Origin: a virus
Direction: 5' to 3' (one strand)
Virus record (IMG/VR): IMGVR_UViG_3300025030_000355
Span: 1-28,482 of that record
DNA: 28,482 nucleotides
Below the pieces are notes generated by a model that saw only the letters and a program-made list of their open reading frames with translations, ran no database searches and had not been told where the DNA came from. Each line of letters starts with the position of its first letter. Position 1 is the first letter of the stretch. A program made the position numbers and the translations under genes. This document shows, in pieces, positions 1,153-15,743 of this stretch.

Positions 1153-3612
1153 ATGGAGAAAATCGTAAGCCCCGGAGTCTTTACTTCGGAAAATGACATA
1201 TCCTTCCTACCACAGGGAATAGGAGAAATCGGAGCTGCCTTTATCGGAGCCACAGTAAAAGGTCGTGCCTTCGAGCCGACAGTAATTGAATCACCAAATG
1301 AATTTGAACGAGTATTTGGACCGGAAACAGAAAGATCATATCTACCATTTGCCGTAAAAAATTATTTGAAAAATGCCGGCAAAGCAACGGTAATACGATT
1401 ACTCGGCGAAGATGGATATACTATTAGACAACCATTGGTATTGGCATTGTCTGGTTCATATGGAACAAGAGCAGTTGCCGTATTACATCCAACCGTTGTA
1501 TTGACAAATGCAGACACCGTAAATTATTTCGAAGCGACGACAGTACAACCAACACTATCAGTATCAGGTTCATCAACTGGTGGAGATTTCGTACTTACTT
1601 TATCTGGCTCATTTACAACTGACACAGGTGACGACGCGTACATTGCAGGAACGGTTGATAAAAACGGAACTAATTACTCAGCATCACTTGACCCAACAGA
1701 CACAAAGTTTATCGGAGATTTATTTCCTAGATTAGCCGAATCAAAAGAGCCACTTTACAATTACATTTTATTTGACAATGTTATTTCCGCGTCACTTTCA
1801 CAAGATTCATCTTCGTTTGTAGTTCGTCAAGGAAGCGGCTCATTAACAGGATGGGCTTTCACATCAGGATATGCTTCGGGTGTAACACCATGGATTCAAT
1901 CACAAAAAATATCCGAGGTTGCAACAGATTTGTTTAGGGTCTATCACCGTTCACATGGTACCGACACAAATTATGAAGTAAAAATTCAAATCACCAATGT
2001 TCGTGCAGCCGGATCAATTCCAGGTACCGACTATGGTTCATTTAGTTTGCAAGTTCGTGCAGTTGACCAAGATAACATTTGGGGTTCACCATATTCATAC
2101 GATGACTCAGATTCAAGACAAAACATTCTTGAGCAATTCGACAATTTGTCACTTGACCCAAATGCAACAAATTATATAGTAAGAAAAATTGGTGACCGTT
2201 ATACACAATGGAATTCAACTGATTTGAAACTTGAATACAAAGGAGATTATCCAAATAAATCGGAGTATATCCGCATCGACCCAACAGACGCTCTTAAAGA
2301 AGGAGCATTGAGTGCAGTGCTTGTACCGTTTGGACACCAACCGTTGTACCAACCAATTTCCAGTGTATTTTCAAACACACCATCAGCTTCATTTGTAACC
2401 GACCAAAATATCGGCGGAATTTACAATAAGAAAAAACCATGGGGAGTCGATTTTACCAATACAGATAATCTTAACTACCTAAAACCACTACCAGATGCTG
2501 CGTTGCTAACTACCGGTTCTAACGTAGCTTTTTATCTTGGAAATTTCAACCAACCAGCAGCAGCAAACTACCCAACAGTAGCAACAGCATTTTCAGGGGC
2601 AATTGACTTAACATCAAACACTTCGGCAGAGACAAGAAAGTTTATTGTACCAATGCAAGGTGGATTCGATGGATTTAGACCTCATGTACAAAGAAAAATG
2701 GCAGCTAAGATTACAAATGTCAATACACAGGGATTCGACATGACTTCTGGAGCATGGGGAGATGATGCATATCGTAGAGCACTTGATATTATTTCAAATG
2801 CAGATGAATATGACATCAACATGCTTGTTCTTCCAGGTGTAATCAATGAATTACATAGTGGAGTAGCAGCAAGGGCAATTGAGGTTTGTGAAGATAGAGG
2901 GGATGCATTTTATCCAATGGACGGATTCAGTATCGACACCAATGTTGCTTCGGCAATAGTCGAAAGCAATTTGCTTACCACCGATTCAAATTATACTTCG
3001 GTATGGTTTCCATGGGTTAAGATCATGAACAAAACCAAAAACAAACCAATGTGGGTTCCACCAAGCGTTGTGCTGCCGGAAATAATTGCATATTCCGATA
3101 AAGTTTCTCAACCATGGTTTGCACCAGCTGGATTGAATAGAGGAGGAATTACCGAGGCGTTAGAAGCATATACTCGTTTGAATCATGCGGAACGTGATGA
3201 CCTTTATGAAAACAGAATTAATCCAATTGCAACATTTCCGGGACAAGGAATTGTGGTTTGGGGCCAAAAGACATTACAAGCAAAAGCCTCTGCGTTGGAC
3301 AGAATTAACGTGAGGAGATTGTTAATTGCACTGAAAAAATTTGTGGCTTCTGCAAGCAAATATTTGGTTTTCGAACAGAATTCAAGCTCGACAAGAAATC
3401 AATTTTTGAACATTGTTAATCCATATATGGAAAGTGTTCAACAGAGACAGGGGCTTCATGCGTTTAAGGTAGTGTGCTCAGAAGAGAACAATACACCCGA
3501 TTTGATTGATCGCAATATTTTGAAAGGTGATATTTATTTACAACCAACAAAAACTTCAGAATTCATTATAATTGGGTTCAATGTGCTTCCAACTGGAGCA
3601 ACATTTTCTTAA
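1153..3612 (+). CDS. 18: Contractile tail sheath protein (T4 gp18-like)
   Basis: An 819-residue tail sheath protein that polymerises around the tail tube and contracts during DNA injection. T4 gp18 is 659 residues, so this one carries extra material, mostly in a Ser/Gly/Thr-rich middle part (about 110-420) likely to be exposed on the sheath surface. The N-terminus (PGVFTSENDISFLPQGIGEI) and the C-terminal third are typical of sheaths: MNMLVLPGV, ARAIEVCEDRGDAFYPMD, GQGIVVWGQKTL and a nearby ALDRINVRRLL. AAGGAAAT precedes the ATG. A strong terminator follows the stop. In T4 the tube gene follows directly; here it is about 7.5 kb away. Confidence 0.95.
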   Translation: MEKIVSPGVFTSENDISFLPQGIGEIGAAFIGATVKGRAFEPTVIESPNEFERVFGPETERSYLPFAVKNYLKNAGKATVIRLLGEDGYTIRQPLVLALSGSYGTRAVAVLHPTVVLTNADTVNYFEATTVQPTLSVSGSSTGGDFVLTLSGSFTTDTGDDAYIAGTVDKNGTNYSASLDPTDTKFIGDLFPRLAESKEPLYNYILFDNVISASLSQDSSSFVVRQGSGSLTGWAFTSGYASGVTPWIQSQKISEVATDLFRVYHRSHGTDTNYEVKIQITNVRAAGSIPGTDYGSFSLQVRAVDQDNIWGSPYSYDDSDSRQNILEQFDNLSLDPNATNYIVRKIGDRYTQWNSTDLKLEYKGDYPNKSEYIRIDPTDALKEGALSAVLVPFGHQPLYQPISSVFSNTPSASFVTDQNIGGIYNKKKPWGVDFTNTDNLNYLKPLPDAALLTTGSNVAFYLGNFNQPAAANYPTVATAFSGAIDLTSNTSAETRKFIVPMQGGFDGFRPHVQRKMAAKITNVNTQGFDMTSGAWGDDAYRRALDIISNADEYDINMLVLPGVINELHSGVAARAIEVCEDRGDAFYPMDGFSIDTNVASAIVESNLLTTDSNYTSVWFPWVKIMNKTKNKPMWVPPSVVLPEIIAYSDKVSQPWFAPAGLNRGGITEALEAYTRLNHAERDDLYENRINPIATFPGQGIVVWGQKTLQAKASALDRINVRRLLIALKKFVASASKYLVFEQNSSSTRNQFLNIVNPYMESVQQRQGLHAFKVVCSEENNTPDLIDRNILKGDIYLQPTKTSEFIIIGFNVLPTGATFS

Positions 3613-3884: not shown

Positions 3885-5680
3885 TATTAAGTAATAAAGA
3901 AATAGTAAAAATACACAGGATATCGGGTAATGGTGTTTCAGTTGTTTTAAAGAGAAAACACAAAGAAACATATGATTTTATCTCAAATAAATACACAGCC
4001 GGTTGTAAATTCGTTGAAAAATTGTACCAGCATATTTTACAGGATTTTGGAAAATGCGTTGTTTGTGAATCACAGTGTGTATTTCTTAGCTTTAAAGAAG
4101 GATATCGTAAGCATTGTTCTGTAGCATGTGCTTCACGTGATACAAATATAAAAGAAGATAAAAGAAGAACAATGATCAAAAGATATGGTGTTGATAATAT
4201 TTTTAAATCAGAGGAATTCAAAACAAAAGCAAAGAAAACAAAAAAAGAAAAATATGGTGATGAAAATTTCAATAATCGTATTAAGGCAAGTGAAACTAAA
4301 TTGAATTTATACGGCAATGCAAATTTCAATAATCACAACAAATCTGAAGAAACAAATCTTCAAAAATATGGCGTTAAATGTTATTTAGAAACGGATGAAT
4401 GTAAAAAAAGAACAAATGAAATAAATCAAGAAAAATACGGAGTTGATTGGATAACACAATCTGAACATTTCAAAGAAAAAGCCAAAGATACAACCCTTGA
4501 AAAATATGGAGTTGACAATTTTGCAAAATCGCCTTTATTCTTAGAAAAATACAAAGAAACTTGTATGATGAATCATGGCACAGAATACGCTTCACAATCA
4601 AACACATTTAAGGACAAGGCTAAAATAACATATTTTAAAAGATTATTATCTGCAGATAGGTTTAACGGCAAAATAAAGTTACTTTTCGATCTATCAGAAT
4701 ATGACGGTGCTAAAAAATCATATTCATTTGAATGTCTTAAATGTAATCAACCATTTAACAGTAAATTAGGAGGCAGTATGATACCAAGATGCCCGTCTTG
4801 TTTTTCTCCACGTAATACGTCAATTGGAGAAAAGGAAGCCACTGAATATGTTCGTAAATTAATTCCTACTACAACAATAATTGAAAATTCAAAGAAAATA
4901 ATATCTCCACTTGAATTAGACATATATCTACCAGAATATAAATTGGCAATTGAATATAATGGCATTACGTGGCATTCAGAAGGATTTGGTGGCAAAACCA
5001 AACATTACCATATATCAAAGACAAAGAAATGTGAAGAATTGGGTATTAGATTAATTCATATTTTTGATACAGAATGGGTAGATTCTACCGACATAGTAAA
5101 ATCAATTCTTAAGAACGCACTTATTGGCTCGTCGAATAAAATACATGCAAGAAAGTGTGCTTTGATAGAAGTCCCTAAAGCTAAGTCAGATTTATTTTTG
5201 TTTGATAATCACCTGCAGGGCATTGATAATAGCCATATTCGCATTGCGGCAACACATAATAATGAAATAGTTGCGTTAATGACATTTAGCAAACCTAGGT
5301 ACAATAAATCATATGAATGGGAAATTGTGCGTTATGCAATTAAACAAGATTGTCAAATAACCGGAATTGCGGCAAGACTATTAAATTATTTCAAAGAAAA
5401 ATATCATCCAAAATCAATTATATCATATGCAGACAGACGATATTTTACTGGAAAAATTTATGAAAAACTTGGATTTCAACTAATCGGCGAAACACCGCCA
5501 AATTACTTTTATTTTGGTAAAGGATATGATTTAACTTCAAGACTACAATTTCAAAAACACAAATTAAAATCATTACTGGAAATCTTCGACCCAGCTCTAA
5601 CAGAATGGCAAAATATGCAATTAAACGGATTTGATAGAATCTGGGACTGTGGTTCACTAAAATATTCTATGGTTTTCTAA
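3881..5680 (+). CDS. Large homing endonuclease: YGV repeats, PD-(D/E)XK, GNAT-like tail
   Basis: A 599-residue modular protein. Residues about 50-90 hold cysteine knuckles (CVVCESQC, later HCSVAC). From about 95 to 250 there are six or so repeats of 25-30 residues with the core K-Y-G-V-D-N and a K-x-x-x-T helix, a modular DNA-binding array found in phage homing endonucleases. Residues about 314-395 form a Vsr/DUF559-like PD-(D/E)XK nuclease (LELDIYLPEYKLAIEYNG, then WH). Residues about 420-547 resemble a GNAT acyltransferase fold (DNHLQG, EIVRYA, ISYADRRYFTGKIYEKLGF). The protein ends in WQNMQLNGFDRIWDCG. The gene at 12697 is a full-length paralogue with the same domain order. The start overlaps the stop of the upstream small regulator. 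Confidence 0.8.
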   Translation: MILSNKEIVKIHRISGNGVSVVLKRKHKETYDFISNKYTAGCKFVEKLYQHILQDFGKCVVCESQCVFLSFKEGYRKHCSVACASRDTNIKEDKRRTMIKRYGVDNIFKSEEFKTKAKKTKKEKYGDENFNNRIKASETKLNLYGNANFNNHNKSEETNLQKYGVKCYLETDECKKRTNEINQEKYGVDWITQSEHFKEKAKDTTLEKYGVDNFAKSPLFLEKYKETCMMNHGTEYASQSNTFKDKAKITYFKRLLSADRFNGKIKLLFDLSEYDGAKKSYSFECLKCNQPFNSKLGGSMIPRCPSCFSPRNTSIGEKEATEYVRKLIPTTTIIENSKKIISPLELDIYLPEYKLAIEYNGITWHSEGFGGKTKHYHISKTKKCEELGIRLIHIFDTEWVDSTDIVKSILKNALIGSSNKIHARKCALIEVPKAKSDLFLFDNHLQGIDNSHIRIAATHNNEIVALMTFSKPRYNKSYEWEIVRYAIKQDCQITGIAARLLNYFKEKYHPKSIISYADRRYFTGKIYEKLGFQLIGETPPNYFYFGKGYDLTSRLQFQKHKLKSLLEIFDPALTEWQNMQLNGFDRIWDCGSLKYSMVF

Positions 5681-5683
5681 AAT

Positions 5684-5700
5684 TCCTTATAATTATACAT
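5684..5700 (+). promoter_or_regulatory. Weak promoter-like element
   Basis: TCCTTATAATTATACAT runs directly into the ATG at 5701. It shares the CTTATA start and alternating T/A symmetry of the late element but has diverged, and it is so close to the start codon that it could only drive a nearly leaderless transcript or the genes further downstream. Confidence 0.3.
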
Positions 5701-5943
5701 ATGAAATCATCACAACTCAAATCACTAATAAAAGAATGTATTAAAGAAGTTCATAATGAAAATGCAAACACAGAACGAACTGAACGTAAAAAACTTTTAG
5801 CACTTGGGCATAAATACGTAGATAAAATTAAAGCAGAGTGGATCAAAGAACATTCTTCATTAGAAGAAGAAAATGATCGAACCGAAGAACAAGTTATAGA
5901 TGCCTTATTGGAATTAATAAACTACTCGAATAAATTAAAATAA
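5701..5943 (+). CDS. Tagged small protein A (putative internal virion protein)
   Basis: An 80-residue, highly charged, helical protein. Its first 20 residues, MKSSQLKSLIKECIKEVHNE, are the tag shared by at least eight neighbours; the rest (lysine and glutamate rich, with a possible coiled coil near 25-78) resembles none of them. The tag forms an amphipathic helix and ends in Glu. In T4, internal head proteins carry a short N-terminal capsid-targeting sequence that the prohead protease removes after (L/I)-x-E. This copy ends in V-H-N-E, the weakest match to that rule. First gene of the chain of small genes, followed after 2 bases by the next tagged gene. Function of the cargo is unknown. Confidence 0.7.
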   Translation: MKSSQLKSLIKECIKEVHNENANTERTERKKLLALGHKYVDKIKAEWIKEHSSLEEENDRTEEQVIDALLELINYSNKLK

Positions 5944-5945
5944 TT

Positions 5946-6089
5946 ATGAAAACATCACAACTCAAATCACGTATCAAAGAATGCGTCAAAGAAGTTCTTA
6001 AAGAATCAAATGATCTTAAGAACCTTGAATCAATGGCTAAAGATTTTGTATCAAAGTACGGTAAAGTCAAAATTAAGACTAAGCTATGA
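5946..6089 (+). CDS. Tagged small protein B
   Basis: A 47-residue protein almost half of which is the shared tag: MKTSQLKSRIKECVKEVLKE. The L-K-E at residues 18-20 fits the T4-type prohead protease rule, leaving a 27-residue basic peptide with repeated Lys. The segment 5972-6000 is identical over 29 bases to 8161-8189 in another tagged gene, which shows recent copying of the tag. Its TGA overlaps the next ATG at 6086. Confidence 0.65.
   Translation: MKTSQLKSRIKECVKEVLKESNDLKNLESMAKDFVSKYGKVKIKTKL
5972..6000 (+). repeat. Repeated tag-coding segment (first of pair)
   Basis: These 29 bases are identical to 8161-8189. Both code for the I-K-E-C-V-K-E-V-L part of the shared tag in otherwise unrelated genes. 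Confidence 0.8.
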
Positions 6090-6187
6090 GTAAATTTGAT
6101 AAAATTCGTTTGTTAGATAAATCGTTGATGAGTGCGTTTAAGGAATTAAATGATATTCAGGCCGTGCTTAATTTAATGAAAATTTAA
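6086..6187 (+). CDS. Very small hypothetical protein (33 aa)
   Basis: MSKFDKIRLLDKSLMSAFKE is followed by 13 more residues, and the ATG overlaps the preceding stop (ATGA), the arrangement used throughout this gene chain. The product would be a single amphipathic helix. I recognise no family. Support rests on the overlap and on the absence of any other gene here; it could be a decayed relative of the coiled-coil genes at 6712, 7862 and 9041. Confidence 0.45.
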   Translation: MSKFDKIRLLDKSLMSAFKELNDIQAVLNLMKI

Positions 6188-6189
6188 CT

Positions 6190-6210
6190 TTCTTATATTT
6201 ATATTAAACA
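6190..6210 (+). promoter_or_regulatory. Promoter-like element before the gene at 6222
   Basis: TTCTTATATTTATATTAAAC resembles the late element (CTTATACTTAT followed by A/T symmetry) and ends about 12 bases before the ATG at 6222. Divergent copy, moderate support. Confidence 0.4.
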
Positions 6211-6221
6211 AATAAAATCAT

Positions 6222-6539
6222 ATGACACCATTTATCGATTGGCGCGAATTTTCCAAACGGGACAAAATTAAACGATTGCCCATTTACGAGCAAAAGCGTT
6301 TATACTTTCTTGAAATGCAAAAGCAACAATATCTTAATGATATTATGACTCTTCAAGAACATACCCCACAAGAAACAAATCCAGTATTCCAACAAGGGTG
6401 GGCAGTAGCACCACAATCAGGACCAGGAGCCGCGGCGGGGTCACCAGGATATCAACCGCCCACAGATGATATTAATGATTATTGTGTAAATGATTATGTT
6501 GAGTCGTACTTTGTCCTTGCAGACCCAATACATTACTAA
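6222..6539 (+). CDS. Small structural-type protein with Pro/Gly-rich tail
   Basis: A 105-residue protein. The first 45 residues (WREFSKRDKIKRLPIYEQKR, then LYFLEMQKQQY) form a charged helical head. The rest is rich in Gln, Pro, Gly and Ala (FQQGWAVAPQSGPGAAAGSP), followed by a DINDYCVNDYVESYF end. The central stretch is more GC-rich than its surroundings. Short proteins with a helical head and a Pro/Gly-rich body are common among phage virion proteins, and the gene lies in the late region. It lacks the shared tag. No firm family assignment. Confidence 0.65.
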   Translation: MTPFIDWREFSKRDKIKRLPIYEQKRLYFLEMQKQQYLNDIMTLQEHTPQETNPVFQQGWAVAPQSGPGAAAGSPGYQPPTDDINDYCVNDYVESYFVLADPIHY

Positions 6540-6541
6540 TC

Positions 6542-6715
6542 ATGAAAAAATCTCAACTTATATTGCTTATCAAAGAAACGATTAATGAGGTTCTTAAAGA
6601 GTATAATCTTTTACAGGAAAGTGATATTCTTATAAGAGAACGAAGTCAATTGGTACTTAAAGCAAAAAAACATGCCCAAAAATTTAAAGATGAAATTAAA
6701 AGGTTGGGATTATGA
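6542..6715 (+). CDS. Tagged small protein C
   Basis: A 57-residue protein. Residues 1-20 are MKKSQLILLIKETINEVLKE, a tag copy with T-I-N in place of the common C-V-K. L-K-E at 18-20 fits a prohead protease site. The remaining 37 residues are a charged helix rich in Lys, Arg and Gln. Its TGA overlaps the ATG at 6712. Confidence 0.65.
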   Translation: MKKSQLILLIKETINEVLKEYNLLQESDILIRERSQLVLKAKKHAQKFKDEIKRLGL

Positions 6716-6984
6716 TACTTGAAAATAAAGAAGATGTTGAAAAATTAATTAGTTTCCTTGATAGAAAAATTATCGACTTAAGAAATAGCAAACTTCTTTA
6801 CAATGATAAAAAGTTTAAATCTGCAATGTTGCTTGCTAAAGAATTTTATGACAATATAGTGATGCCATGGTATGATAAATTTTTAAGAACTCAAAATGAG
6901 CCAAGCACCAAGGAAGAACAGGAAATGAATGATACAATATTAGATGTCATCAGTGGAATTAACAAACTTTTAAACCAAAAATAA
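6712..6984 (+). CDS. Small helical hypothetical protein
   Basis: A 90-residue, predominantly helical and charged protein (MILENKEDVEKLISFLDRKI at the start, INKLLNQK at the end). It has no tag of its own but overlaps the stop of tagged gene C by ATGA. The same tag-gene/coiled-coil-gene pairing occurs at 8877/9041, so such pairs may work together. A chaperone or partner role is only a suggestion. Confidence 0.6.
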   Translation: MILENKEDVEKLISFLDRKIIDLRNSKLLYNDKKFKSAMLLAKEFYDNIVMPWYDKFLRTQNEPSTKEEQEMNDTILDVISGINKLLNQK

Positions 6985-7009
6985 ACAACAATCAAATAAA
7001 TTAAATACT

Positions 7010-7276
7010 ATGCCACTAACATTAAGAGCAACCAAAGGATCAAAATTAACCATCGCAGAGATGGACTCAAATCTAACGTACTTAGATACTAAGACAGCAT
7101 ATAGTGGATCGTTCACCGGCACCGCGATATCAGGGTCATTGAAATTAAACGCCACGGCATCATACGCACCTGACTGGGCCGCGTCAGATGGAACAATCGT
7201 TCCTGCGACAATTAGTGGTGTATCATACTTGTATATGTCAATGGGTGGTACCTGGACCTCGAGGTCATTCGCTTAA
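7010..7276 (+). CDS. Small virion protein with tail-fibre-like N-terminus
   Basis: An 88-residue protein. It starts MPLTLRATKGSKLTIAEMDS, a start seen in many structural proteins of T4-like phages, and continues with Thr/Ser/Gly/Ala-rich beta-type sequence (SGSFTGTAISGSLKLNATAS) to a short Gly-Thr-Trp end. The composition is unlike the charged helical neighbours and like fibre or decoration proteins. It is far too short for a full fibre, so it is either a small decoration protein or the remains of a longer gene. Confidence 0.65.
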   Translation: MPLTLRATKGSKLTIAEMDSNLTYLDTKTAYSGSFTGTAISGSLKLNATASYAPDWAASDGTIVPATISGVSYLYMSMGGTWTSRSFA

Positions 7277-7277
7277 T

Positions 7278-7553
7278 ATGATAAAACTCAAAACACTTTT
7301 AGAAGGATATGTTCCACAATTAAAGAAGTATCAACGAGTCAAGGTATTATCAAAATTAGGTAATATCTTTTCACGTGCAATTGACGTTGATCCATCACAA
7401 TGGCCACAGCCAGGTCAAACATATGATATTTCTGGAATAGATGTACGTGGAAATATGTATGGGTTTACAAGTTATGAAGATGGCGAAGTTCGGTGGCATG
7501 ATACAAAATGGATCGATGATCAAATGAAAAAAGGAAAAATAAAAGTAGTATAA
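7278..7553 (+). CDS. Small protein with tag-like start, SH3-like body
   Basis: A 91-residue protein. I place the start at ATG 7278, one base after the previous stop, rather than at an in-frame ATG at 7188 inside the previous gene. It begins MIKLKTLLEG, a shorter amphipathic start with L-L-E at 7-9 that also fits a T4-type capsid-targeting sequence. The rest (PSQWPQPGQTYDISGIDVRG, then FTSYEDGEVRWHDTKWI) looks like a small beta-barrel. No family recognised. Confidence 0.65.
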   Translation: MIKLKTLLEGYVPQLKKYQRVKVLSKLGNIFSRAIDVDPSQWPQPGQTYDISGIDVRGNMYGFTSYEDGEVRWHDTKWIDDQMKKGKIKVV

Positions 7554-7572
7554 TACCAAATAAAGGATTACA

Positions 7573-7872
7573 ATGTATAAAGAATCGATTATCAAGAACC
7601 TCAAAGAAGGTGGAGAAGAATACAAAACATTTTTTAAAGGTGCAATGAAGAAATTCAATGTCACAACCATAGCAGGAATGACCGATGAAAAGAAAAAAGA
7701 GTTCTTTGATTATGTCGAGAAAAATTTCAAAGCCAAGAATGAATCGATTAAAGAAATGATTCGAGCAACGATTAAAGAAGTATTAAAAGAAGAATCATCA
7801 AACAAAGGGTTACCTGAATTAAATATATTAATTTCAATGTGCAAGGAGTATATCAAGAAGCATGGAAAGTAA
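7573..7872 (+). CDS. Small protein with an internal tag-like segment
   Basis: A 99-residue protein preceded by AAAGGA. It starts MYKESIIKNLKEGGEEYKTF. Around residues 57-73 it contains ESIKEMIRATIKEVLKE, a good copy of the shared tag lying inside the protein. Either an older untagged protein fused upstream of a tagged one, or the segment works at an internal position. An N-terminal L-K-E also occurs at 10-12. Overlaps the next gene by 11 bases. Confidence 0.65.
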   Translation: MYKESIIKNLKEGGEEYKTFFKGAMKKFNVTTIAGMTDEKKKEFFDYVEKNFKAKNESIKEMIRATIKEVLKEESSNKGLPELNILISMCKEYIKKHGK

Positions 7873-8374
7873 TTTCAATCAAATTCGTAAATTACAAACA
7901 GAACTGAAAGCTGCATTTGAAAGAATTGAGAAATCATCACAAACTAAAAATGTCGAAAGGGCAATTGCACTTGGAAAAATAATTAAATTCTTTAAAGAAA
8001 AAGAATCTCAAGCAATTAATAATTTGTTCAACGCAGGGTTAGAAATTAGTAATGATGACGTAATTAAACAACTTAAATCACTGCAAGACTTATTAAAGGT
8101 CATACTGTTATTAGAACAAAATATCAAGGAAAATATGAAAAAATCAGAACTATTATCAATTATCAAAGAATGCGTCAAAGAAGTTCTTATTACTGAAGCA
8201 GAATCTGAAGATCGTTTAAAATCCATTCAAATCAAAATTGACAATAAGAAAAAAACATTAAGTGACCCGACCCTTAAACCGGAACGTAAAAGTGAATTGC
8301 AACAATCACTTAATAAACTAATTATCCAACAATCGGAATTAAAAAAGAAATCATCAAAACCAAAAGATAAATGA
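7862..8374 (+). CDS. Coiled-coil protein fused in frame to a tagged protein (E)
   Basis: A 170-residue protein in two parts. Residues 1-91 are a helical domain related to the separate protein at 9041 (shared NFN-x-IR, LF(N/D)A and LKSL-x-x-(I/L)L patterns). From residue 92 it reads MKKSELLSIIKECVKEVL, the shared tag, then a 60-residue charged helical cargo. At 9041/9304 the same two parts are separate overlapping genes. The internal ATG at 8135 is preceded by AAGGA at a usable distance, so a separate 79-residue tagged protein may also be made from it. Confidence 0.7.
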   Translation: MESNFNQIRKLQTELKAAFERIEKSSQTKNVERAIALGKIIKFFKEKESQAINNLFNAGLEISNDDVIKQLKSLQDLLKVILLLEQNIKENMKKSELLSIIKECVKEVLITEAESEDRLKSIQIKIDNKKKTLSDPTLKPERKSELQQSLNKLIIQQSELKKKSSKPKDK

Positions 8375-8880
8375 CATCAGACGAAATTAAGTTATTTATT
8401 AAATCAGAAATTCAGCGAGTAATGACTGAAGAATTTTATGAGGTAGTTAATTCAACGGAATTAAACGATGTAAACGATACACTGCTCATGGAACGGTTAA
8501 ATTATAATTTAAGCGATGTTTATCATATTACCCATGAATTACCAACTTCAATTGAATTTAAAGATGAGTTCGGTGTAACTCACATTACAAAGATTACCAA
8601 AAATAATGATTTTATGGAAGTAAAATTATATTGGTTGGATGATACAAATACATTGAGATTAGATGCACCCACAAAAACAACGAATAAAACATTAAATACT
8701 CATTTATCTAATTTAATTAATAAGTTTTTACCTAAGTATAAATATTTTGTAATTCAACCAACTGATGCAATTAGACATAGATTATTTTGGTTAGTTCTAA
8801 ATAAATATGTAGACATAACTAAATGGGACGTAACTCAATTGCAGCGAAAAATTTTAATCATTAAAAAACCAACAACATGA
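8371..8880 (+). CDS. Tagged protein F (169 aa)
   Basis: A 169-residue protein starting MTSDEIKLFIKSEIQRVMTE, a diverged copy of the tag that keeps the hydrophobic spacing and the final M-T-E. The rest is the largest and most globular-looking cargo of the set (ITHELPTSIEFKDEFGVTHI, then MEVKLYWLDD, then a helical part and WDVTQLQRKILII). No family recognised. ATGA overlap at both ends. Confidence 0.7.
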   Translation: MTSDEIKLFIKSEIQRVMTEEFYEVVNSTELNDVNDTLLMERLNYNLSDVYHITHELPTSIEFKDEFGVTHITKITKNNDFMEVKLYWLDDTNTLRLDAPTKTTNKTLNTHLSNLINKFLPKYKYFVIQPTDAIRHRLFWLVLNKYVDITKWDVTQLQRKILIIKKPTT

Positions 8881-8930
8881 AAAAATCAGAACTAATAACA
8901 CTTATCCGCGAATGCGTGAAAGAAGTAATT
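8877..8930 (+). repeat. Repeated tag-coding segment (first of second pair)
   Basis: Matches 9304-9357 at 50 of 54 positions; both are the complete tag region. Beyond it the two genes have no resemblance, so similarity stops where the tag stops. Confidence 0.8.
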
Positions 8931-9044
8931 AAAGAAAAATCTGGTAGACTTCAAGAGGCTGTTAAACCATATTCGTCCTTAAAAGAGTATAATAAAGATT
9001 TAGATAAAATGATAGTTTTAGCTAAACAACTGATTAAGAAATGA
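8877..9044 (+). CDS. Tagged small protein G
   Basis: A 55-residue protein. Tag: MKKSELITLIRECVKEVIKE, with I-K-E at 18-20. The 35-residue remainder is Lys/Leu-rich and helical. The first 54 bases match 9304-9357 at 50 positions, with three of the four differences silent, so the tag is under protein-level selection or was copied recently. ATGA overlap with genes on both sides. Confidence 0.65.
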   Translation: MKKSELITLIRECVKEVIKEKSGRLQEAVKPYSSLKEYNKDLDKMIVLAKQLIKK

Positions 9045-9307
9045 ATAATTTCAATGTAATAAGAATATTGCAGCATGAGGTTGAAACTTTATTCACCAGC
9101 ATAAATAAAAACAGAAGTTCTTTAGACACAAATAAATTAATTGTATTAGACCAGTTATTGAAAATGTTTGAAGCTTCGAAGACACGAGTAATAACCGACT
9201 TATTCGATGCAGAACAAACTGTTACCGAACAAGAGAGTATAACCAAATTAAAATCATTAAAAACAATACTAACCATATTATTAGAAACAACCAATTGGAA
9301 ATCATGA
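9041..9307 (+). CDS. Small coiled-coil protein, relative of the 7862 N-terminal domain
   Basis: An 88-residue helical protein (MNNFNVIRILQHEVETLFTS at the start). It shares the NFN-x-IR start, the LF-D/N-A segment and the LKSLKTILTILLE end with residues 1-90 of the fused protein at 7862. Here a stop codon separates it from the tagged gene at 9304 by an ATGA overlap. The pair suggests tandem duplication of a two-gene block. Confidence 0.65.
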   Translation: MNNFNVIRILQHEVETLFTSINKNRSSLDTNKLIVLDQLLKMFEASKTRVITDLFDAEQTVTEQESITKLKSLKTILTILLETTNWKS

Positions 9308-9633
9308 AAAAATCAGACCTAATAACACTTATCCGTGAATGCGTTAAAGAAGTAATCGCAGAAAACAAACCCGTGAAAAGCACCGATCCAACACCTAAAG
9401 CTGGAGAAGCCCAAAAGACCGAAGCGAAAGTTGATGCTAATATCCTAAACAAATCAGGAAAGGCAATAAAAGGTAAAGCATCTGATGCAGAGATGAAAGC
9501 TGCTGTTGCAAAAGCAAATGCAAATACTAAAAACGTCGCAGCATATCAACCATCAAAAGAAAAATACACTATGATCAAAGGTGTACCACATAAAACGGTA
9601 AATGGAAAATTAGTACCACTGACTAAGAAATAA
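9304..9633 (+). CDS. Tagged protein H, Lys/Ala-rich
   Basis: A 109-residue protein; I start it at ATG 9304 (ATGA overlap with 9307) rather than the in-frame ATG at 9295. Tag: MKKSDLITLIRECVKEVIAE. The I-A-E at 18-20 is the same tripeptide at which T4 internal protein targeting peptides are cut, as I recall them. The mature part would be very basic and low in hydrophobic residues (Lys/Ala/Pro, e.g. MKAAVAKANANTKNVAAY), as expected for a protein packed with DNA in the head. This is the best single case for an internal protein. Confidence 0.7.
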   Translation: MKKSDLITLIRECVKEVIAENKPVKSTDPTPKAGEAQKTEAKVDANILNKSGKAIKGKASDAEMKAAVAKANANTKNVAAYQPSKEKYTMIKGVPHKTVNGKLVPLTKK

Positions 9634-9638
9634 AATCT

Positions 9639-9656
9639 CTTATACTTATATATAAC
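9639..9656 (+). promoter_or_regulatory. Putative late promoter element
   Basis: CTTATACTTATATATAAC is a close variant of the recurring element, in the 44-base gap after gene H and about 22 bases before the presumed ATA start of gene I at 9678. Confidence 0.5.
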
Positions 9657-9677
9657 AATTATTAACACCAAAACACT

Positions 9678-9971
9678 ATAAAAAAATCCGAGTTAAAATC
9701 ATTGATAAAAGAATGTGCCAAAGAAGTACTTTTAGAAAAGAAATCAAGTCTTAATGAAAGTGCCTTTGAATATTGGTACAATGAAAAGGAATTTATCAAC
9801 CAACTTAAAAAAGTAGAAAAGGCCTTTCCAAAGAACACAAAGGTAATCGCCGCTCTTAACACAATTTTAAAAGACCCAAAGAATCGAGCATTTGCTTTTG
9901 ACGATGATGAATTTGTAAAAGTTTTAACTCGTAACGGAGTAGATAAAGATTGGGTCTGGGACAATTTTTAG
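9678..9971 (+). CDS. Tagged protein I with an apparent ATA start
   Basis: A 97-residue protein. The frame reads KKSELKSLIKECAKEVLLE directly after an ATA codon exactly where every other tagged gene has ATG. The only upstream in-frame codons before a stop at 9663 are CAC, CAA, AAC and ACT, so no standard start gives the full tag. A TTG at 9702 would give an 89-residue product lacking the first eight tag residues. The cargo (EYWYNEKEFINQLKKVEKAF, then FAFDDDEFVKVLTRNGVDKD) is intact, which argues against simple decay. Either ATA is used, the TTG is used, or this copy has lost its start. Confidence 0.55.
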   Translation: MKKSELKSLIKECAKEVLLEKKSSLNESAFEYWYNEKEFINQLKKVEKAFPKNTKVIAALNTILKDPKNRAFAFDDDEFVKVLTRNGVDKDWVWDNF

Positions 9972-10006
9972 AGCTATCAGACCTAAATTATTGAAAATCA
10001 AAAACT

Positions 10007-10026
10007 CTTATACTTATATGTATAAC
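10007..10026 (+). promoter_or_regulatory. Putative late promoter element
   Basis: CTTATACTTATATGTATAAC is a symmetrical copy of the recurring element (the outer TTATAC/GTATAA pair) in the gap before the HNH endonuclease at 10035. It ends 8 bases before that ATG. Confidence 0.5.
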
Positions 10027-10034
10027 AGTTGATA

Positions 10035-11075
10035 ATGGCAAGACCCAAGAAACATAGGGAATTACTTACCAAACAATGTAAAAACATAAATTGTGATGAT
10101 ACATTTGAAGTGGTAATTGGTACTCAAAAAGAAAAGAAACAATGGTGTTCTCACAAATGTCGCAGTAGTGATGTAGATGAAATTGAAAGGATGAAAATTT
10201 CTCAACGGAAGACTTGGAATGAAAAGTATAATGGCAAACATCCAATGGCCACCGCAGAAACTCAAAAGCGACACAAAGCGGCGGTAATGAAAAATTTAGG
10301 TGTCGAACATGCCCTACAATCTGATAAATGTAAGAAGAAAGTAAAGGCAACTCTATTAGAAAGATATGGTGACGAGAATTATAATAATCCGGATAAGATG
10401 AAGGAAACTTGTTTGAAAAATTATGGTGTTGAGAATCCACAACAGGTTAAAGAAATTAGAGAAAAATCTTTAAAGACTAAAATAATTAAGTACGGAGAAG
10501 GCAATTCGTCAAATAGTAAAAAGGCAGTTGCAACTTCCAAAGAAAGATGGGGCGATAATTTTAATAACCGAGTAAAGACAAAAGAAACTTGTATTGAAAG
10601 ATTTGGTTGTGAATATGCCGCTCAATCACCGGAAGTACAGAATAAAATTAAGAAGACTAATTTGGAGAGATATGGAGTTGAATTTCCACTGCAGTCAAAA
10701 GAAATTGTCAAGAAGACACATGATACATGGAAGAAAAATTATAAAACACTCCATGGAATTACATACGAACAATATCTAGAAACTTTACCTGAAGTAAAAT
10801 TATATAAGCGACAGGTTTCTATTATCACTAATAGGCAACCAATTAAAATTTTATCTAATTATAATAAGCGAGGAAAAGCAGGTATAAACGGTGCTTATAA
10901 TCTCGATCATATATTTCCTATCATCGAAGGATTTAAAAATAATATTCCACCTGAAGTAATCGGCGATATCAGTAATCTACAGTTTATTTCGTGGGAAGAA
11001 AACAATAAAAAAAGTGATAACATTCATGAAAATCTTGAAAATGTTATACTTATTAGTAACAAATATTTAAAATAA
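10035..11075 (+). CDS. Homing endonuclease: YGV repeats + HNH
   Basis: A 346-residue protein starting at ATG 10035 (a TTG six bases upstream is also in frame). An N-terminal cysteine knuckle (QCKNINCDDTFEV, then WCSHKC) is followed from about 60 to 235 by repeats with the core Y-G-(V/D)-E-N and K-x-x-x-T, the same DNA-binding array as in the 3881 and 12697 genes. The C-terminus (about 289-328) is an HNH nuclease: NLDHIFPIIEGFKNNIPPEV, then NLQFISWEENNKKSD. So the binding array of one enzyme type is joined to the catalytic domain of another. It lies directly upstream of the tail tube gene. Confidence 0.8.
   Translation: MARPKKHRELLTKQCKNINCDDTFEVVIGTQKEKKQWCSHKCRSSDVDEIERMKISQRKTWNEKYNGKHPMATAETQKRHKAAVMKNLGVEHALQSDKCKKKVKATLLERYGDENYNNPDKMKETCLKNYGVENPQQVKEIREKSLKTKIIKYGEGNSSNSKKAVATSKERWGDNFNNRVKTKETCIERFGCEYAAQSPEVQNKIKKTNLERYGVEFPLQSKEIVKKTHDTWKKNYKTLHGITYEQYLETLPEVKLYKRQVSIITNRQPIKILSNYNKRGKAGINGAYNLDHIFPIIEGFKNNIPPEVIGDISNLQFISWEENNKKSDNIHENLENVILISNKYLK
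11043..11060 (+). promoter_or_regulatory. Putative late promoter for the tail tube gene, inside the preceding ORF
   Basis: GTTATACTTATTAGTAAC keeps the core of the recurring element and lies within the last codons of the HNH endonuclease gene, 27 bases before the ATG of gp19. The element thus also encodes the V-I-L-I-S-N of the endonuclease C-terminus. Confidence 0.5.
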
Positions 11076-11086
11076 GGAAATACATT

Positions 11087-11575
11087 ATGGCAGAGCTAAT
11101 AGATCCTCAAGCTATCTTTTTCACCGCTTTCGAGCCCAAAACTCAAAATCGCTTCATCATGTCAATTGAAGGCATACCTGCTTTCTTAATCAAAGCAGCC
11201 GGAAGACCTTCGGTAAAATTTGGCGACGTGGTACTTGATCACATCAACGTAAAACGTAAACTCAAAGGCAAAGCAGATTGGGATCCAATTACAATTAAAA
11301 TGTACGACCCGGTTGTACCCTCAGCCGCACAGGCAGTAATGGAGTGGGTAAGGTTGAGTCATGAAAGCGTTACGGGTCGTGATGGGTATAGTGATTTTTA
11401 TAAGAAAGATATTACGTTCAATGCACTTGGACCGGTTGGTGATCGTGTAGAAGAATGGACATTGAAAGGTGCTTATATTCAATCTGCACAATTCGGCGAC
11501 ATGGACTGGTCACAGGAAGGACCGGTAGAAATAACAGTGGTGTTGGCATATGATTTTGCGGTGCTTCAGTTTTAG
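11087..11575 (+). CDS. 19: Tail tube protein (T4 gp19-like)
   Basis: A 162-residue tail tube subunit; T4 gp19 has 163 residues. It forms stacked hexameric rings inside the sheath through which DNA passes. Recognisable parts are FEPKTQNRFIMSIEGIPAFL, IKAAGRPSVKFGDVVLDHIN, the KGKADWDPITIKMYDP strand pair and the C-terminal DWSQEGPVEITVVLAYDFAV. AAGGAAAT precedes the ATG at good spacing, as for gp18. It sits between two HNH endonuclease genes and is separated from gp18 by the chain of small tagged genes. Confidence 0.95.
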   Translation: MAELIDPQAIFFTAFEPKTQNRFIMSIEGIPAFLIKAAGRPSVKFGDVVLDHINVKRKLKGKADWDPITIKMYDPVVPSAAQAVMEWVRLSHESVTGRDGYSDFYKKDITFNALGPVGDRVEEWTLKGAYIQSAQFGDMDWSQEGPVEITVVLAYDFAVLQF

Positions 11576-11604
11576 AGTATAATAATACAGCAACGTAACA
11601 CGAA

Positions 11605-11645
11605 TTTCTTAATTTCCTTATACTTATTAGTACAACAAAATACTA
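11605..11645 (+). repeat. Direct repeat, copy 1, containing a late promoter element
   Basis: About 41 bases match 12514-12555 with a single inserted A. The repeat contains the CTTATACTTATTAGTAC core (11617-11633). The two copies flank the HNH endonuclease gene at 11666-12502. Confidence 0.85.
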
Positions 11646-11665
11646 ATAATTATAAGGAAATTTTT

Positions 11666-12502
11666 ATGAATAAATGTCAATATTGCAATAAAGAATACCC
11701 AACCATCCGCGGGCTAGAAGTCCACAAAGGACGAAAACACATCGACGAAGTCGCACAAGAAAACAAAGATAAAATACAATCTAAACCATGTCAATGTCCA
11801 AGATGTGAAGCTAAATTTGATTCGTATATGGGAGTTGCAACCCACTCAAAAATTACACACAAATTAACAGGGCAAAAATTATTTATGGAGTATAACCACA
11901 TCACAGAAATTCCAAAGTGTAAATGTGGGTGTGGTCATAACACCAATTACTCTCCAGGTAAAGGTGGACGTTTCGGTGAATATCTTCAAGGCCACGTTTC
12001 TAGAGTTAATGGTGGATTTTATTCTTTGGAAGGCTCACGCAAGTCACATGAGACTCAAAGAAAACACTTTGCATCTGGTGAAATTACACAATGGAATAAA
12101 GGCAAATCATATGAAGAAACATTTGGTAAAGAACGAGCCCAAAAAATAAAAGACACCATCAGCAGTAATAAAGAGCGGGCAAATAAAATTTCAATTGGTA
12201 GGAAGGAGTTTTTAGCGAAAGAGGCGGGTTATTCATCATGGCAAGAATGGTACAACGATTTAACAGCCCGTGATCAATATTATTACCTCGTACGAGTTCT
12301 AACTGAAGCAAATTCTCATCTAATTCCAGGATATGATAAATCAACTCGTGGACTTGCAGGAAAAGAAGGTGCCCACCAAATTGACCATATTATTTCAATA
12401 GCAAAAGGATTTAAACAAGGCATTTCACCTGAAGTAATAGGTTCCGTTGATAATTTGCGATTTATACCTTGGAAACAGAATTTACAGAAGGGGTCTAGAT
12501 AA
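11666..12502 (+). CDS. Homing endonuclease: two zinc fingers, NUMOD-like helix, HNH
   Basis: A 278-residue protein. Two C2H2 fingers open it (CQYCNKEYPTIRGLEVHKGR with a following KH, and CPRCEAKFDSYMGVATHSKI with TH). Then come a CKCGCG knuckle near 90-95 and a helical segment about 141-175 (NKGKSYEETFGKERAQKIKD) resembling NUMOD3 DNA-binding motifs. The HNH domain is at about 238-278 (QIDHIISIAKGFKQGISPEV, then NLRFIPWKQN). The fingers match those of the gene at 285; the HNH matches that of the gene at 10035. AAGGAAAT precedes the ATG. Nearly identical 41-base repeats flank the gene. Confidence 0.8.
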   Translation: MNKCQYCNKEYPTIRGLEVHKGRKHIDEVAQENKDKIQSKPCQCPRCEAKFDSYMGVATHSKITHKLTGQKLFMEYNHITEIPKCKCGCGHNTNYSPGKGGRFGEYLQGHVSRVNGGFYSLEGSRKSHETQRKHFASGEITQWNKGKSYEETFGKERAQKIKDTISSNKERANKISIGRKEFLAKEAGYSSWQEWYNDLTARDQYYYLVRVLTEANSHLIPGYDKSTRGLAGKEGAHQIDHIISIAKGFKQGISPEVIGSVDNLRFIPWKQNLQKGSR

Positions 12503-12513
12503 TCATTAATGGG

Positions 12514-12555
12514 TTTCTTAATTTCCTTATACTTATTAGTACAACAAAAATACTA
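12514..12555 (+). repeat. Direct repeat, copy 2, containing a late promoter element
   Basis: Second copy of the repeat at 11605-11645, with one extra A in the CAACAAAAA run. It contains CTTATACTTATTAGTAC at 12526-12542, so the promoter was duplicated along with it. Confidence 0.85.
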
Positions 12556-12577
12556 TTAAGGGCCGCGCGTATTGAAT

Positions 12578-12604
12578 TTTGTCATTGAAAATTTTTTACT
12601 ATAT
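12578..12604 (+). promoter_or_regulatory. Possible sigma70-type promoter
   Basis: TTGTCA, then 15 bases, then TATATT, similar to the better elements at 14822 and 20724 (shared ...TTTTTACTATATT). It lies in the untranslated stretch before the endonuclease at 12697. The spacer is shorter than ideal. Confidence 0.35.
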
Positions 12605-12614
12605 TAAAAATAAA

Positions 12615-12691
12615 GAGTGGACAGTAGGTAGCTCCTATTTCCCGAAACCGAATAAGTACGGATTACACTCATTTTATAAATCTATTCGGAG
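12615..12691 (+). promoter_or_regulatory. Structured leader with possible pseudoknot over the ribosome site
   Basis: GAGTG (12615-12619) can pair with CACTC (12666-12670), and CCGAATA (12648-12654) with TATTCGG (12683-12689). The two pairings cross, which defines a pseudoknot topology. A small TAGG/CCTA hairpin lies inside the first. The second stem covers the GG of the GGAG Shine-Dalgarno (12688-12691) of the endonuclease at 12697, so folding would hide the ribosome site. T4 endonuclease genes are known to be held back by hairpins over their ribosome sites; use of that mechanism here is inference. Confidence 0.45.
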
Positions 12692-12696
12692 ATAAA

Positions 12697-14451
12697 ATGA
12701 AATGTTCCTACCCAAGTTGCAATACTGTTATTCTGAATAACAATAAATATTGCTCAAAAGAATGTCGATACGACCACGTTAAATTGAAATCACGTGAAAC
12801 TCGACAATGTTCAAATCCTCAATGTACAAATACTTTTGAAGTTGGCAAATCATCGACTAAAACTTCTTGCTGCCTAAAGTGCTCAAGGAAATCACCAGAA
12901 TATCTTGCTCAAATTAAAACAACTAATATTGCAAAGTATGGAGTTGATAATCCTTCTAAGTCTCCAGAAATAATCGAAAAGATCCGAAAAACCAATCAGA
13001 AAAAATACGGAGTAGATAGTTACTATCAAACCGAAGAATTTAAAGAAAAGTCGAAAAAAACAAAAAAAGAAAAATATAATGAAGAATTTTTTAATAACCG
13101 TGATAAATGTAATGCAACCAAAACTGAAAAATATGGCGATCCAACATATTGCAATAAAGAGCAAATAATAACAACTAACCAAGAAAGGTACGGAGCAAAT
13201 TCATTTACATCAACAGAAGAAGGTAAAGAAAAGGTTACTACAACTAATCTAGAACGATATGGGGAAGAATGTTATTTTGATACAGACAAATTTAAAGAGA
13301 CATACCAACAAATGCTCAGTGAGCGAGGAGTTATTAATATATCACAATTACCAGAAGTTAAACAAAAAAACAGAGACAGCCATCTTAAACGATTCTTTGG
13401 ATTATTAATTAATTCAGACAGACTTAAAGAAAAAGTTATTCCGTTGTTTTCAATTAATGATTATAAAGGAGTAAAAGAAGGAAATCAATACGAATTTCAA
13501 TGTAAAATATGTTCAACAAAATTCTATACTACTATTGATAACGGAACAATACCAAGATGTCCAAAATGTTATCCTCCGTTAAATGGTGAATCAATTGGTG
13601 AAATCGAACTATATGAATTTATTTGTACATTAGTTGGAAAAGAAAATGTTATACGTGGTAATCGTAAAATTTTAAAAGGCCGTGAGCTTGATATTTATAT
13701 TCCATCAATGAGTATTGCGATAGAGTATAATGGATTATATTGGCACACTGATCTTCATGGTAAAGGTACAAAATCATATCATATTTCAAAAACCGAGGAA
13801 TGTGAGAAATTAGGAATACAATTAATACACGTTTGGGATTTTGAATGGCTGAACAAACAAGAAATTGTAAAATCAATCATTAGACAAAAATTGAGTTATG
13901 TAAAGACAAAAATATATGCTCGTAAATGTAATGTGCAAGAAATTAATAATGAACAATATACTAGATTTATTTTAGACAACCATTTACAAGGCATTAAGTC
14001 TTCGTCTATTAAAATTGGATTATTTCAAAACGAAGAACTATTGTCAATTATGTCATTTAGTAAAAAAGGTATAAATCAGTATGAAATGGATCGGTTTTGT
14101 AATAAAATTAATACAAGTGTAATCGGGGGAGCGGATAGACTATTCAAATATTTTTTGAAAATTTATAACCCAAAATTCATCACTACATTTTCAGACAGAC
14201 GATTTTTTGATGGTAAAATATATTTGAAATTAGGATTTGAATTTAAAGGTTTCACCTCACCTAATTACCAGTACACCCATCGATTTAAGGTTATTGGTTC
14301 GAGACTTAAATTTCAGAAACATAAACTAAAAGGACTGCTTGAAATATTTGATCCTAATTTATCGGAATGGCAAAATATGCAATTGAATAAATATGACAGA
14401 ATTTGGGACTGTGGACATAGAAAATTTACATGGAGTAATCATTCTCACTGA
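12697..14451 (+). CDS. Large homing endonuclease paralogue: YGV repeats, PD-(D/E)XK, GNAT-like tail
   Basis: A 584-residue paralogue of the gene at 3881. It has cysteine knuckles at the N-terminus (CSYPSCNTV, CSKEC, CSNPQCTNTF, CCLKC), about six K-Y-G-V/D repeats between about 75 and 215, and a PD-(D/E)XK core near 329-350 (RELDIYIPSMSIAIEYNG, then WH). A GNAT-like region lies at about 408-531 (DNHLQGIKSSSIKIGL, ITTFSDRRFFDGKIYLKLGF), and the end is WQNMQLNKYDRIWDCG. It lies between the tail tube region and tagged gene J. Its leader is the structured element at 12615-12691, with GGAG six bases before ATG. Confidence 0.8.
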   Translation: MKCSYPSCNTVILNNNKYCSKECRYDHVKLKSRETRQCSNPQCTNTFEVGKSSTKTSCCLKCSRKSPEYLAQIKTTNIAKYGVDNPSKSPEIIEKIRKTNQKKYGVDSYYQTEEFKEKSKKTKKEKYNEEFFNNRDKCNATKTEKYGDPTYCNKEQIITTNQERYGANSFTSTEEGKEKVTTTNLERYGEECYFDTDKFKETYQQMLSERGVINISQLPEVKQKNRDSHLKRFFGLLINSDRLKEKVIPLFSINDYKGVKEGNQYEFQCKICSTKFYTTIDNGTIPRCPKCYPPLNGESIGEIELYEFICTLVGKENVIRGNRKILKGRELDIYIPSMSIAIEYNGLYWHTDLHGKGTKSYHISKTEECEKLGIQLIHVWDFEWLNKQEIVKSIIRQKLSYVKTKIYARKCNVQEINNEQYTRFILDNHLQGIKSSSIKIGLFQNEELLSIMSFSKKGINQYEMDRFCNKINTSVIGGADRLFKYFLKIYNPKFITTFSDRRFFDGKIYLKLGFEFKGFTSPNYQYTHRFKVIGSRLKFQKHKLKGLLEIFDPNLSEWQNMQLNKYDRIWDCGHRKFTWSNHSH

Positions 14452-14489
14452 AAACCTAAACTTCATATAATTATTACAAACATAATATC

Positions 14490-14819
14490 ATGAAACCCTC
14501 ACAACTCAAAGATCTCATTAAAGAACAAGTCAAATTAATACTTACCGAAGCCCCAGAAGGTACCAAAAACGTATCTCATCATTTACTTGGGCTTCGTCAA
14601 GAAAGACTTGTAATTTCAGGTCCAACCGTTCCACAACTAAAAGACCAAATTATCAAAATTGCAAAAAAGCATGACCCAGAATCTAAAATGCAATTTTTTC
14701 CTGCCACTCAAAAAGTAGTTGGATTATTTGCCGTCGCGAAACTTCAATTTATGCAGCGTGATATGAAACAACTCGACAAATCCATTAAACTGGAATTTAA
14801 AGCCAGACAATTAAAATAG
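14490..14819 (+). CDS. Tagged protein J
   Basis: A 109-residue protein starting MKPSQLKDLIKEQVKLILTE, the shared tag with L-T-E at 18-20 followed by A-P-E. The cargo has a compact alpha/beta look (LVISGPTVPQLKDQIIKIAK, then KMQFFPATQKVVGLFAVAKL) and a basic helical end. It is the only tagged gene on the far side of gp19 and was perhaps separated from the main chain by endonuclease insertions. No family recognised. Confidence 0.7.
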   Translation: MKPSQLKDLIKEQVKLILTEAPEGTKNVSHHLLGLRQERLVISGPTVPQLKDQIIKIAKKHDPESKMQFFPATQKVVGLFAVAKLQFMQRDMKQLDKSIKLEFKARQLK

Positions 14820-14870: not shown

Positions 14871-15437
14871 ATGAAAAAAGGTTATTATGTAATTGCAAAA
14901 GAGTTTTCGTTTTGCTACTCGCATCGAGTGCACAGTCAGTCCCTTAACTCGGAATATTCAATTGACACAGCTTGTAAATGTAGACACCTCCATGGTCATC
15001 AAGGTACCGTTAATGTCTATATAAAAGCAGACAAACTAAAAGACGGAATGTGCACAGATTTTAAACATTTGAATTGGTTTAAAAAATTCATCGACGAAAC
15101 CCTAGACCATAAATTTATCATGGACAGTAGTGACCCATTACTCTATAATATCTTTCCAGCATTAAATTTCCAGGAATTTGGTACAGACCCTGCCGATACA
15201 TATGACGTCCATTCCGAAGGATTCAACACCGTCAAACCATCGTTATATTCCGCAGCCGATACTCACATTCAAGAACTTTATGAAGGACTTGTCGTGGTAC
15301 CATTTGTACCTACATCGGAAAATTTATCAAAGTGGTTATTTGATATTGTGTCGAAGAAGATGAAAAAAATTGGAGTTACCGTCAGTCAAGTACAATTTTG
15401 TGAAACACCTAAATCACAGGCAAATTATCATGTATAA
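14871..15437 (+). CDS. queD: 6-carboxytetrahydropterin synthase, QueD
   Basis: A 188-residue T-fold enzyme of the 7-deazaguanine pathway, converting dihydroneopterin triphosphate to 6-carboxytetrahydropterin. Likely zinc ligands are H18, H41 and H43 (CRHLHGHQG). A nucleophilic cysteine is C35 or C37, the D-H pair is D79-H80, and PTSEN (147-151) plus the glutamate of CETP (E178) complete the site. It is longer than bacterial QueD (about 120 residues) owing to an insert near 85-145. A sigma70-like promoter precedes it. It works with FolE (17409) and QueE (15744), encoded in the same array. Confidence 0.88.
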   Translation: MKKGYYVIAKEFSFCYSHRVHSQSLNSEYSIDTACKCRHLHGHQGTVNVYIKADKLKDGMCTDFKHLNWFKKFIDETLDHKFIMDSSDPLLYNIFPALNFQEFGTDPADTYDVHSEGFNTVKPSLYSAADTHIQELYEGLVVVPFVPTSENLSKWLFDIVSKKMKKIGVTVSQVQFCETPKSQANYHV

Positions 15438-15738
15438 CACCGAAGCTGCACTGGTACAAGAATTTATAAAAAATGTCAACCAAGTAGGTGCCCATTTAGA
15501 AGTAATTTCTTCTGCAAAGATTTTACTTGGTCGTGATAATAATGTATTTCCTGTTGCACATGACCCAGCTATATTTTTTGCATGTATTGTTGGATACCTT
15601 GAATCTGTTGAAGAATATGAATTGTGTGGCCGCCTCATTAAAAATAAAAAAAAGGTATTAAAAAGATTGGTTCCGATGGATGATCACTATAAAAAAGTGT
15701 TAGCTTCCTTTAAAGATTTATTTGACGACTTAATTTAA
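15430..15738 (+). CDS. Hypothetical protein between queD and queE
   Basis: A 102-residue protein. I use ATG 15430, which overlaps the end of queD by 8 bases; an in-frame start further upstream would lie well inside queD. The sequence (MYNTEAALVQEFIKNVNQVG, then HDPAIFFACIVGYLESVEEY) looks soluble and mostly helical with a basic middle. No family recognised. Its position between two steps of the deazaguanine pathway is the only clue to a role. Confidence 0.7.
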   Translation: MYNTEAALVQEFIKNVNQVGAHLEVISSAKILLGRDNNVFPVAHDPAIFFACIVGYLESVEEYELCGRLIKNKKKVLKRLVPMDDHYKKVLASFKDLFDDLI

Positions 15739-15743
15739 AAACA

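Follow-up and report, generated by a model that had tools for sequence, protein, structure and literature searches.

The IMG/VR virus record IMGVR_UViG_3300025030_000355 was analysed over a 28-kb fragment (positions 1 to 28,482, hereafter the window) of a T4-like phage, which carries tail genes and no head genes. Its nearest isolate by DNA polymerase is Microcystis phage Mel-JY01 (40% identical), and the right part of the window encodes the DNA polymerase, the clamp and the clamp loader. The subject of this work is a short N-terminal segment of about 20 residues, here called the tag, which recurs in the window on a series of small proteins. The initial annotation had listed ten such proteins with one common tag, and all ten were present: a position matrix built from the ten tags gave each of them a score of at least 36.8, against a top score of about 16 in approximately 1.1 Mb of reversed translations. 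The protein encoded at 8877, used as a query against the window's own record, retrieved six other tags with E values from 5e-7 to 1e-3. The tag genes had been placed between the genes of the tail sheath gp18 (1153..3612, plus strand) and the tail tube gp19 (11087..11575, plus strand), which held for nine of them, while the one at 14490 was located downstream of gp19. The gp20-gp23 cluster, home of the T4 core proteins gp67, gp68 and gp22, is not the site of the window carriers, which lie near gp18 and gp19.

All ten carriers are encoded on the plus strand. The first one (5701..5943, 80 residues, tag MKSSQLKSLIKECIKEVHNE) is a deletion product, and it is followed by two short proteins of 47 residues (5946..6089, tag MKTSQLKSRIKECVKEVLKE) and 57 residues (6542..6715, tag MKKSQLILLIKETINEVLKE). 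The fourth carrier (7573..7872) has its tag AKNESIKEMIRATIKEVLKE inside the protein, at about 7732-7791, and the fifth (8135..8374, tag MKKSELLSIIKECVKEVLITE) lies in frame within the open reading frame (ORF) 7862-8374; both had been described as internal tags, which agreed with our results, with the addition that the tag at 8135 has its own ATG and a Shine-Dalgarno-like AAGGA. The sixth carrier (8371..8880, 169 residues) has a divergent tag, MTSDEIKLFIKSEIQRVMTE, and is followed by proteins of 55 residues (8877..9044, tag MKKSELITLIRECVKEVIKE) and 109 residues (9304..9633, tag MKKSDLITLIRECVKEVIAE). The ninth carrier (9678..9971, tag IKKSELKSLIKECAKEVLLE) starts with ATA and not ATG, and the first usual start codon (TTG at 9702) falls within the tag; the same sequence was found in the related contig L012. 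The ATA may be a start codon of a rare kind, or else the gene has decayed. The tag of the tenth carrier (14490..14819, 109 residues, MKPSQLKDLIKEQVKLILTE) recurs in the contigs L193 and L194 on other cargo. No pair of window cargos was related at E<=0.01 in BLASTP, as expected from the annotation of the cargo as mutually unrelated. By eye, a weak C-terminal helix may be common to several short carriers; it was set aside as a common element, having no BLASTP support.

The tags are conserved as protein, since the proportion of synonymous differences among the seven core window tags was 0.50 and that of nonsynonymous differences 0.22, and since one identical 20-residue tag was encoded in other contigs by 29 different DNA sequences. 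Selection on the tag acts at the protein level. The turnover of the array could be followed in L012, a close relative whose gp18 is 97% identical to that of the window. L012 carries one further tagged gene (L012:5080), together with a transposase gene of the IS605 type and an untagged partner; deletion of this stretch from the window fused the first tag gene (5701) to the C-terminal half of the untagged partner (L012:6813-7067), and the remainder of the array is nearly identical. The transposase gene is of the OrfB/TnpB kind (L012:5444-6788) and lies within the tag array of L012. Repeated DNA or recent duplication could in principle generate such an array, with the tags serving as islands of recombination homology in a mobile hot spot and having no targeting role. 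This would account for the 60-81% DNA identity of the window tags, for the homing-endonuclease-like genes and the IS605-type transposase around and in the array, and for the deletion at 5701. However, this explanation was already disfavoured, and we regard it as very improbable in view of the protein-level conservation and of the occurrence of the same tag in 53 head-operon contigs and in numerous other phages with unrelated DNA.

The family became visible when IMG/VR was searched with profiles and patterns. A related tag, MKITKSQLxxIIKEE, was found at 189 confirmed IMG/VR loci, 80 of which were kept, and no confirmed tag was found among the 84,980 bacterial and archaeal genomes searched. The 172-kb contig behind locus L055 contained ten more tags, the majority with the form MKITKSQLRKIIKEE. 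Counted at E values up to 1, so that the weakest few are uncertain, tag hits per record amounted to 11 (172 kb), 14 (190 kb), 14 (179 kb), 10 (186 kb), 9 (155 kb) and 23 (a 101-kb contig), with 16 in a 484-kb phage. The set of ten had initially been considered unusually large; with 9-23 tags in other genomes or contigs of this tag family, ten is therefore normal for the system. The cargos of the 101-kb cassette, like those of the window, included no related pair (20 cargos, BLASTP). Scanning the cargo against Pfam, PHROG and PADLOC returned essentially nothing: 112 of 113 sampled carriers had no Pfam family, and PADLOC gave isolated weak matches only. Searches with a single tag by tblastn against isolate phages, which returned chance matches or one huge phage only, were uninformative because the tag is too short, and other cassettes escaped a search for N-terminal clusters within 20-kb loci, whose flanks ended too early to include them, but were revealed by the complete records. 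The exact tag peptides had no match in the literature searched.

With the tag alignment as query, 55 viral contigs were retrieved. Apart from L012 and L065, each of them (53 contigs) encodes a protein of approximately 130 residues that begins with a closely similar tag (e.g. MKKSELKNIIKECVKEVIFE), 64-76% identical to the query tag. The gene of this protein precedes gp22 and gp23 and, on all contigs that extend as far as gp21, is located downstream of that gene, either adjacent to it or with one or more genes between, the usual order being gp17-gp20-gp21-(x)-tag protein-S21-gp22-gp23. Invariant positions made up 15 of the 20 tag columns of the family, compared with 9 of all the remaining columns, and a second conserved I-T/S/A-E was present at residue 30. 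A similar N-terminal stretch, IVQEVVREVIAEN, is encoded by the Mel-JY01 gene that follows gp21. The AlphaFold2 model of the head-operon family showed a helix at residues 3-19 and a break at 20-22, just past the predicted cut, with a predicted local distance difference test score of 75-81 for the tag and low values for the rest; beyond the tag the quality of the model was insufficient for a fold search.

The position of a conserved tagged family between gp21 and gp22 raises the question of whether the carriers belong to the prohead core or scaffold, in the manner of gp67 and gp68, in which case they would be degraded, leave the head and act as assembly factors and not as injected cargo. In the T4 core proteins, L/I-x-E occurs at several sites and cleavage reduces the proteins to fragments (PMC9026906), and the second conserved site at residue 30 of the head-operon family would fit the same pattern. 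However, in the carriers L-x-E was concentrated at residues 17-23 and was not enriched further on, and the large, variable cassettes of mutually unrelated cargo are closer to internal proteins than to essential core proteins. We therefore consider a core or scaffold role of the carriers unlikely.

The motif itself was examined in 264 non-redundant tags, chosen on residues 1-14 only. Within residues 15-25, L-x-E was by a wide margin the most enriched of all residue pairs (140 occurrences vs 40.4 in shuffles, z 19.7), whereas residues 28-38 showed no enrichment (9 vs 16 expected). Stricter subsets gave 123/217 vs 42 and, with one tag per locus, 43/80 vs 17. On the same contigs L-x-E was present in 61% of tagged and 17% of untagged ORFs. 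The enrichment was seen only for Glu and only for a gap of one, with no substitute residue or spacing; L and E moved jointly between registers, and A, G, E, Q and N were above background after the Glu. The cleavage consensus of T4 gp21 is L/I-X-E (PMC9026906), and the first 60 residues of gp23 in these phages include four L-x-E sites that are near-invariant. In the window, the ending L/I/M-x-E at residue 20 assigned earlier to nearly all tags was found in 8 of 10, the exceptions being 5701 (HNE) and 8135 (LIT, with ITE one residue on).

The same ending could alternatively be part or the end of an uncleaved helix that docks the proteins on another assembly (tail, baseplate or a scaffold-bound accessory) or on a host target. 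Nine window tags do lie between tail genes, the AlphaFold2 helix ends near residue 19, and G or N after the Glu could in some cases be helix capping. On the other hand, a docking helix would not be expected to select Glu alone (not Asp, Gln or Lys) at a spacing of one and not at helical spacings, nor to change the register of the motif with L and E together. A Glu at the C-terminus of a helix is unfavourable for the helix dipole, and the closest tag-bearing protein belongs to the head operon. Such a docking function hence seems to us rather improbable.

It had further been asked whether the tag occurs only in genomes with a prohead protease. Of the first 40 tag-bearing IMG/VR records tested, 28 matched the PF03420 (Peptidase_S77) profile, as did Mel-JY01, and most of the remaining records without a match begin at or shortly before the tag gene. 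Among 39 tag records, the gp21 profile was found in all those with gp23; no counter-example was seen (15/15 gp23-positive contigs), with power limited by the fact that the contigs are mostly fragments. The records without gp21 were all fragments that also lacked gp23. The protease was present in 5/5 of the tested IMG/VR tag contigs of at least 150 kb (G033 and G044-G047) and in the uncultured 484-kb phage. In the latter (L274; LR756508.1, 155-220 kb), some tag hits lie on both sides of the S77-type protease.

Head-operon placement, the L-x-E enrichment, the motif sites of gp23 and the lack of any gp23 contig without gp21 make a prohead-targeting leader the best reading, and the idea of a cassette of cargo proteins carried in the head, put forward in the initial annotation, is supported by the same observations. 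We estimate a probability of roughly three in four that the tag is a capsid-targeting leader cleaved by a gp21-type protease, with a function like that of the T4 internal-protein propeptides. The common tag, the widespread cassettes, the head-operon placement and the position and specificity of the motif are established directly from the sequences. As for the mechanism, the tag would form an amphipathic helix of about 18 residues, which most likely docks the carrier on the prohead core during head assembly. The T4-type prohead protease (gp21, Peptidase_S77) would cut after (L/I)-x-E at residues 17-23, the cut would free the cargo inside the head, and the freed cargo would be ejected along with the DNA; new cargo genes are gained and lost in tandem cassettes close to late genes. 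In T4, an Asp at P1 prevents the cut and leaves targeting intact.

Several points weigh against a cleaved targeting leader. The canonical (L/I)-x-E is missing in about 40% of tags, including that at 5701, and internal tags misfit a simple N-terminal leader. Tag contigs without gp21 mostly also lack gp23, which limits the power of the co-occurrence test, and the window, as a 28-kb fragment without head genes, does not display a protease of its own. Finally, T4 internal proteins (IPs) and Alt scored -15 to -32 against the tag profile, and the tag did not match the T4 leader MKTYQEFIAE.

The design is nevertheless similar to that of T4 IPI, IPII, IPIII and Alt, in which a short N-terminal leader (about 20 residues in our case) precedes otherwise unrelated small proteins and ends in the gp21 consensus L/I-x-E. 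The T4 propeptides are 10-19 residues long (PMC9026906), and at least ten different IPs were found by their leader in T-even relatives (PMC12373910). Compared with the T4 leaders, the tag is longer, an amphipathic helix with the pattern MK(ITK)xxL(K/R)xIIKEE, and occurs in 9-23 copies per genome or contig as opposed to 3-4 in T4; moreover, some tags are internal and one tagged protein is encoded in the head operon beside gp21. Because the tag has no sequence match to the T4 capsid-targeting peptide, the system is best described as a distinct version of the T4 capsid-targeting system, widespread and of far higher copy number, and not as a member by leader homology. The T4 core proteins gp67, gp68 and gp22 resemble the tagged head-operon family in having genes around gp21 and L/I-x-E sites, but no 20-residue tag was seen in them and they do not form cassettes of unrelated cargo. 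In the giant phages phiKZ and SPN3US, a gp21 homologue processes numerous head proteins after Glu, and these are then ejected (PMC9026906); the phiKZ cleavage motif is S/A-x-E, and a common short swappable tag of the present sequence was not described for these phages in the literature searched. When T4 was subjected to an N-terminal test blind to the tag, IPII, IPIII and 61.1 were obtained. Gene 61.1 (L171:18966-19130) starts with MKTFKEFIKE, close to the IPII/IPIII leader, and its product is possibly an unrecognised T4 internal protein.

Several untagged genes, all on the plus strand, are interspersed with the carriers. A partner protein at 6712..6984 overlaps the stop of carrier 3 and has a relative at L012:6813-7067. 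A helical partner at 7862..8134 reads in frame into the tag at 8135, and another at 9041..9307, about 32% identical to it, overlaps carriers 7 and 8; the short ORF at 6089..6190 resembles the N-termini of both. The ORF at 7278..7553 begins with MIKLKTLLEGY, which is possibly a second, shorter leader ending in LLE|G; the N-terminus MIKLKxLLxE is common to this ORF and Mel-JY01 proteins (L011:7079, 7726 and 8859). The N-terminal part of the 7573 protein (window 7573-7740, EYKTFFKGAMKKFNV...FFDYVEKNFKA) is a small, promiscuous phage domain that recurs in other large phages; matches came from phages of Pseudomonas and Vibrio, where the proteins that contain it are annotated as tape measure, DNA ligase or hypothetical. 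A 395-residue ORF (L174:1723-2910) with two in-frame internal tags resembles window 7573 and 8135, and such ORFs are possibly multi-tag precursor proteins.

Late-type promoters had also been assigned to the tag genes. The motif CTTATAHTTATA was indeed enriched (12 sites vs 1.8 expected), but it was found directly 5' of the tag genes 5701 and 9678 only. The corresponding late-promoter-like sites on the plus strand are CTTATAATTATA (5686..5697), which leaves only 3 nt to the ATG at 5701, and CTTATACTTATA (9639..9650), upstream of carrier 9, while a further such site, CTTATATTTATA (6192..6203), lies upstream of ORF 6222. Two identical promoter-like 36-nt repeats are located at 11605 and 12514. 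The tag array is flanked by three large DUF7487 proteins (window 3881-5680, 10029-11075 and 12697-14451), homing-endonuclease-like by eye, and two of the three genes have a common 117-nt stretch (77% identical). Further to the right, at 14871-18002 and 22923-24143, the window encodes a QueD-type protein, a radical-SAM protein, GTP cyclohydrolase I (FolE) and a TGT-like protein, which suggests 7-deazaguanine modification of the phage DNA.

The T4 proteins Ip1-3 inhibit GmrSD restriction enzymes, each a different one (PMC12373910), and by analogy the cargo perhaps has a role in counter-defence. Such a role would suit the phage of the window because it also encodes the probable DNA-modification genes. 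More tentatively, and with slightly less than even confidence, we propose that the tag is a capsid-entry code in its own right, not described before, which would be ubiquitous among uncultured T4-like phages of aquatic origin and present in at least one 484-kb phage, and by which 10-20 or more interchangeable unrelated effectors would enter each virion, some from fused multi-tag precursors cut by the head protease. If the targeting function is correct, one short pattern would mark the injected proteome of many uncultured phages and provide a label for thousands of injected early effectors. The tagged proteins, which are almost all orphans, would then be prime candidates for counter-defence and host takeover, and the tag would constitute a modular route for loading foreign proteins into the heads of these phages.

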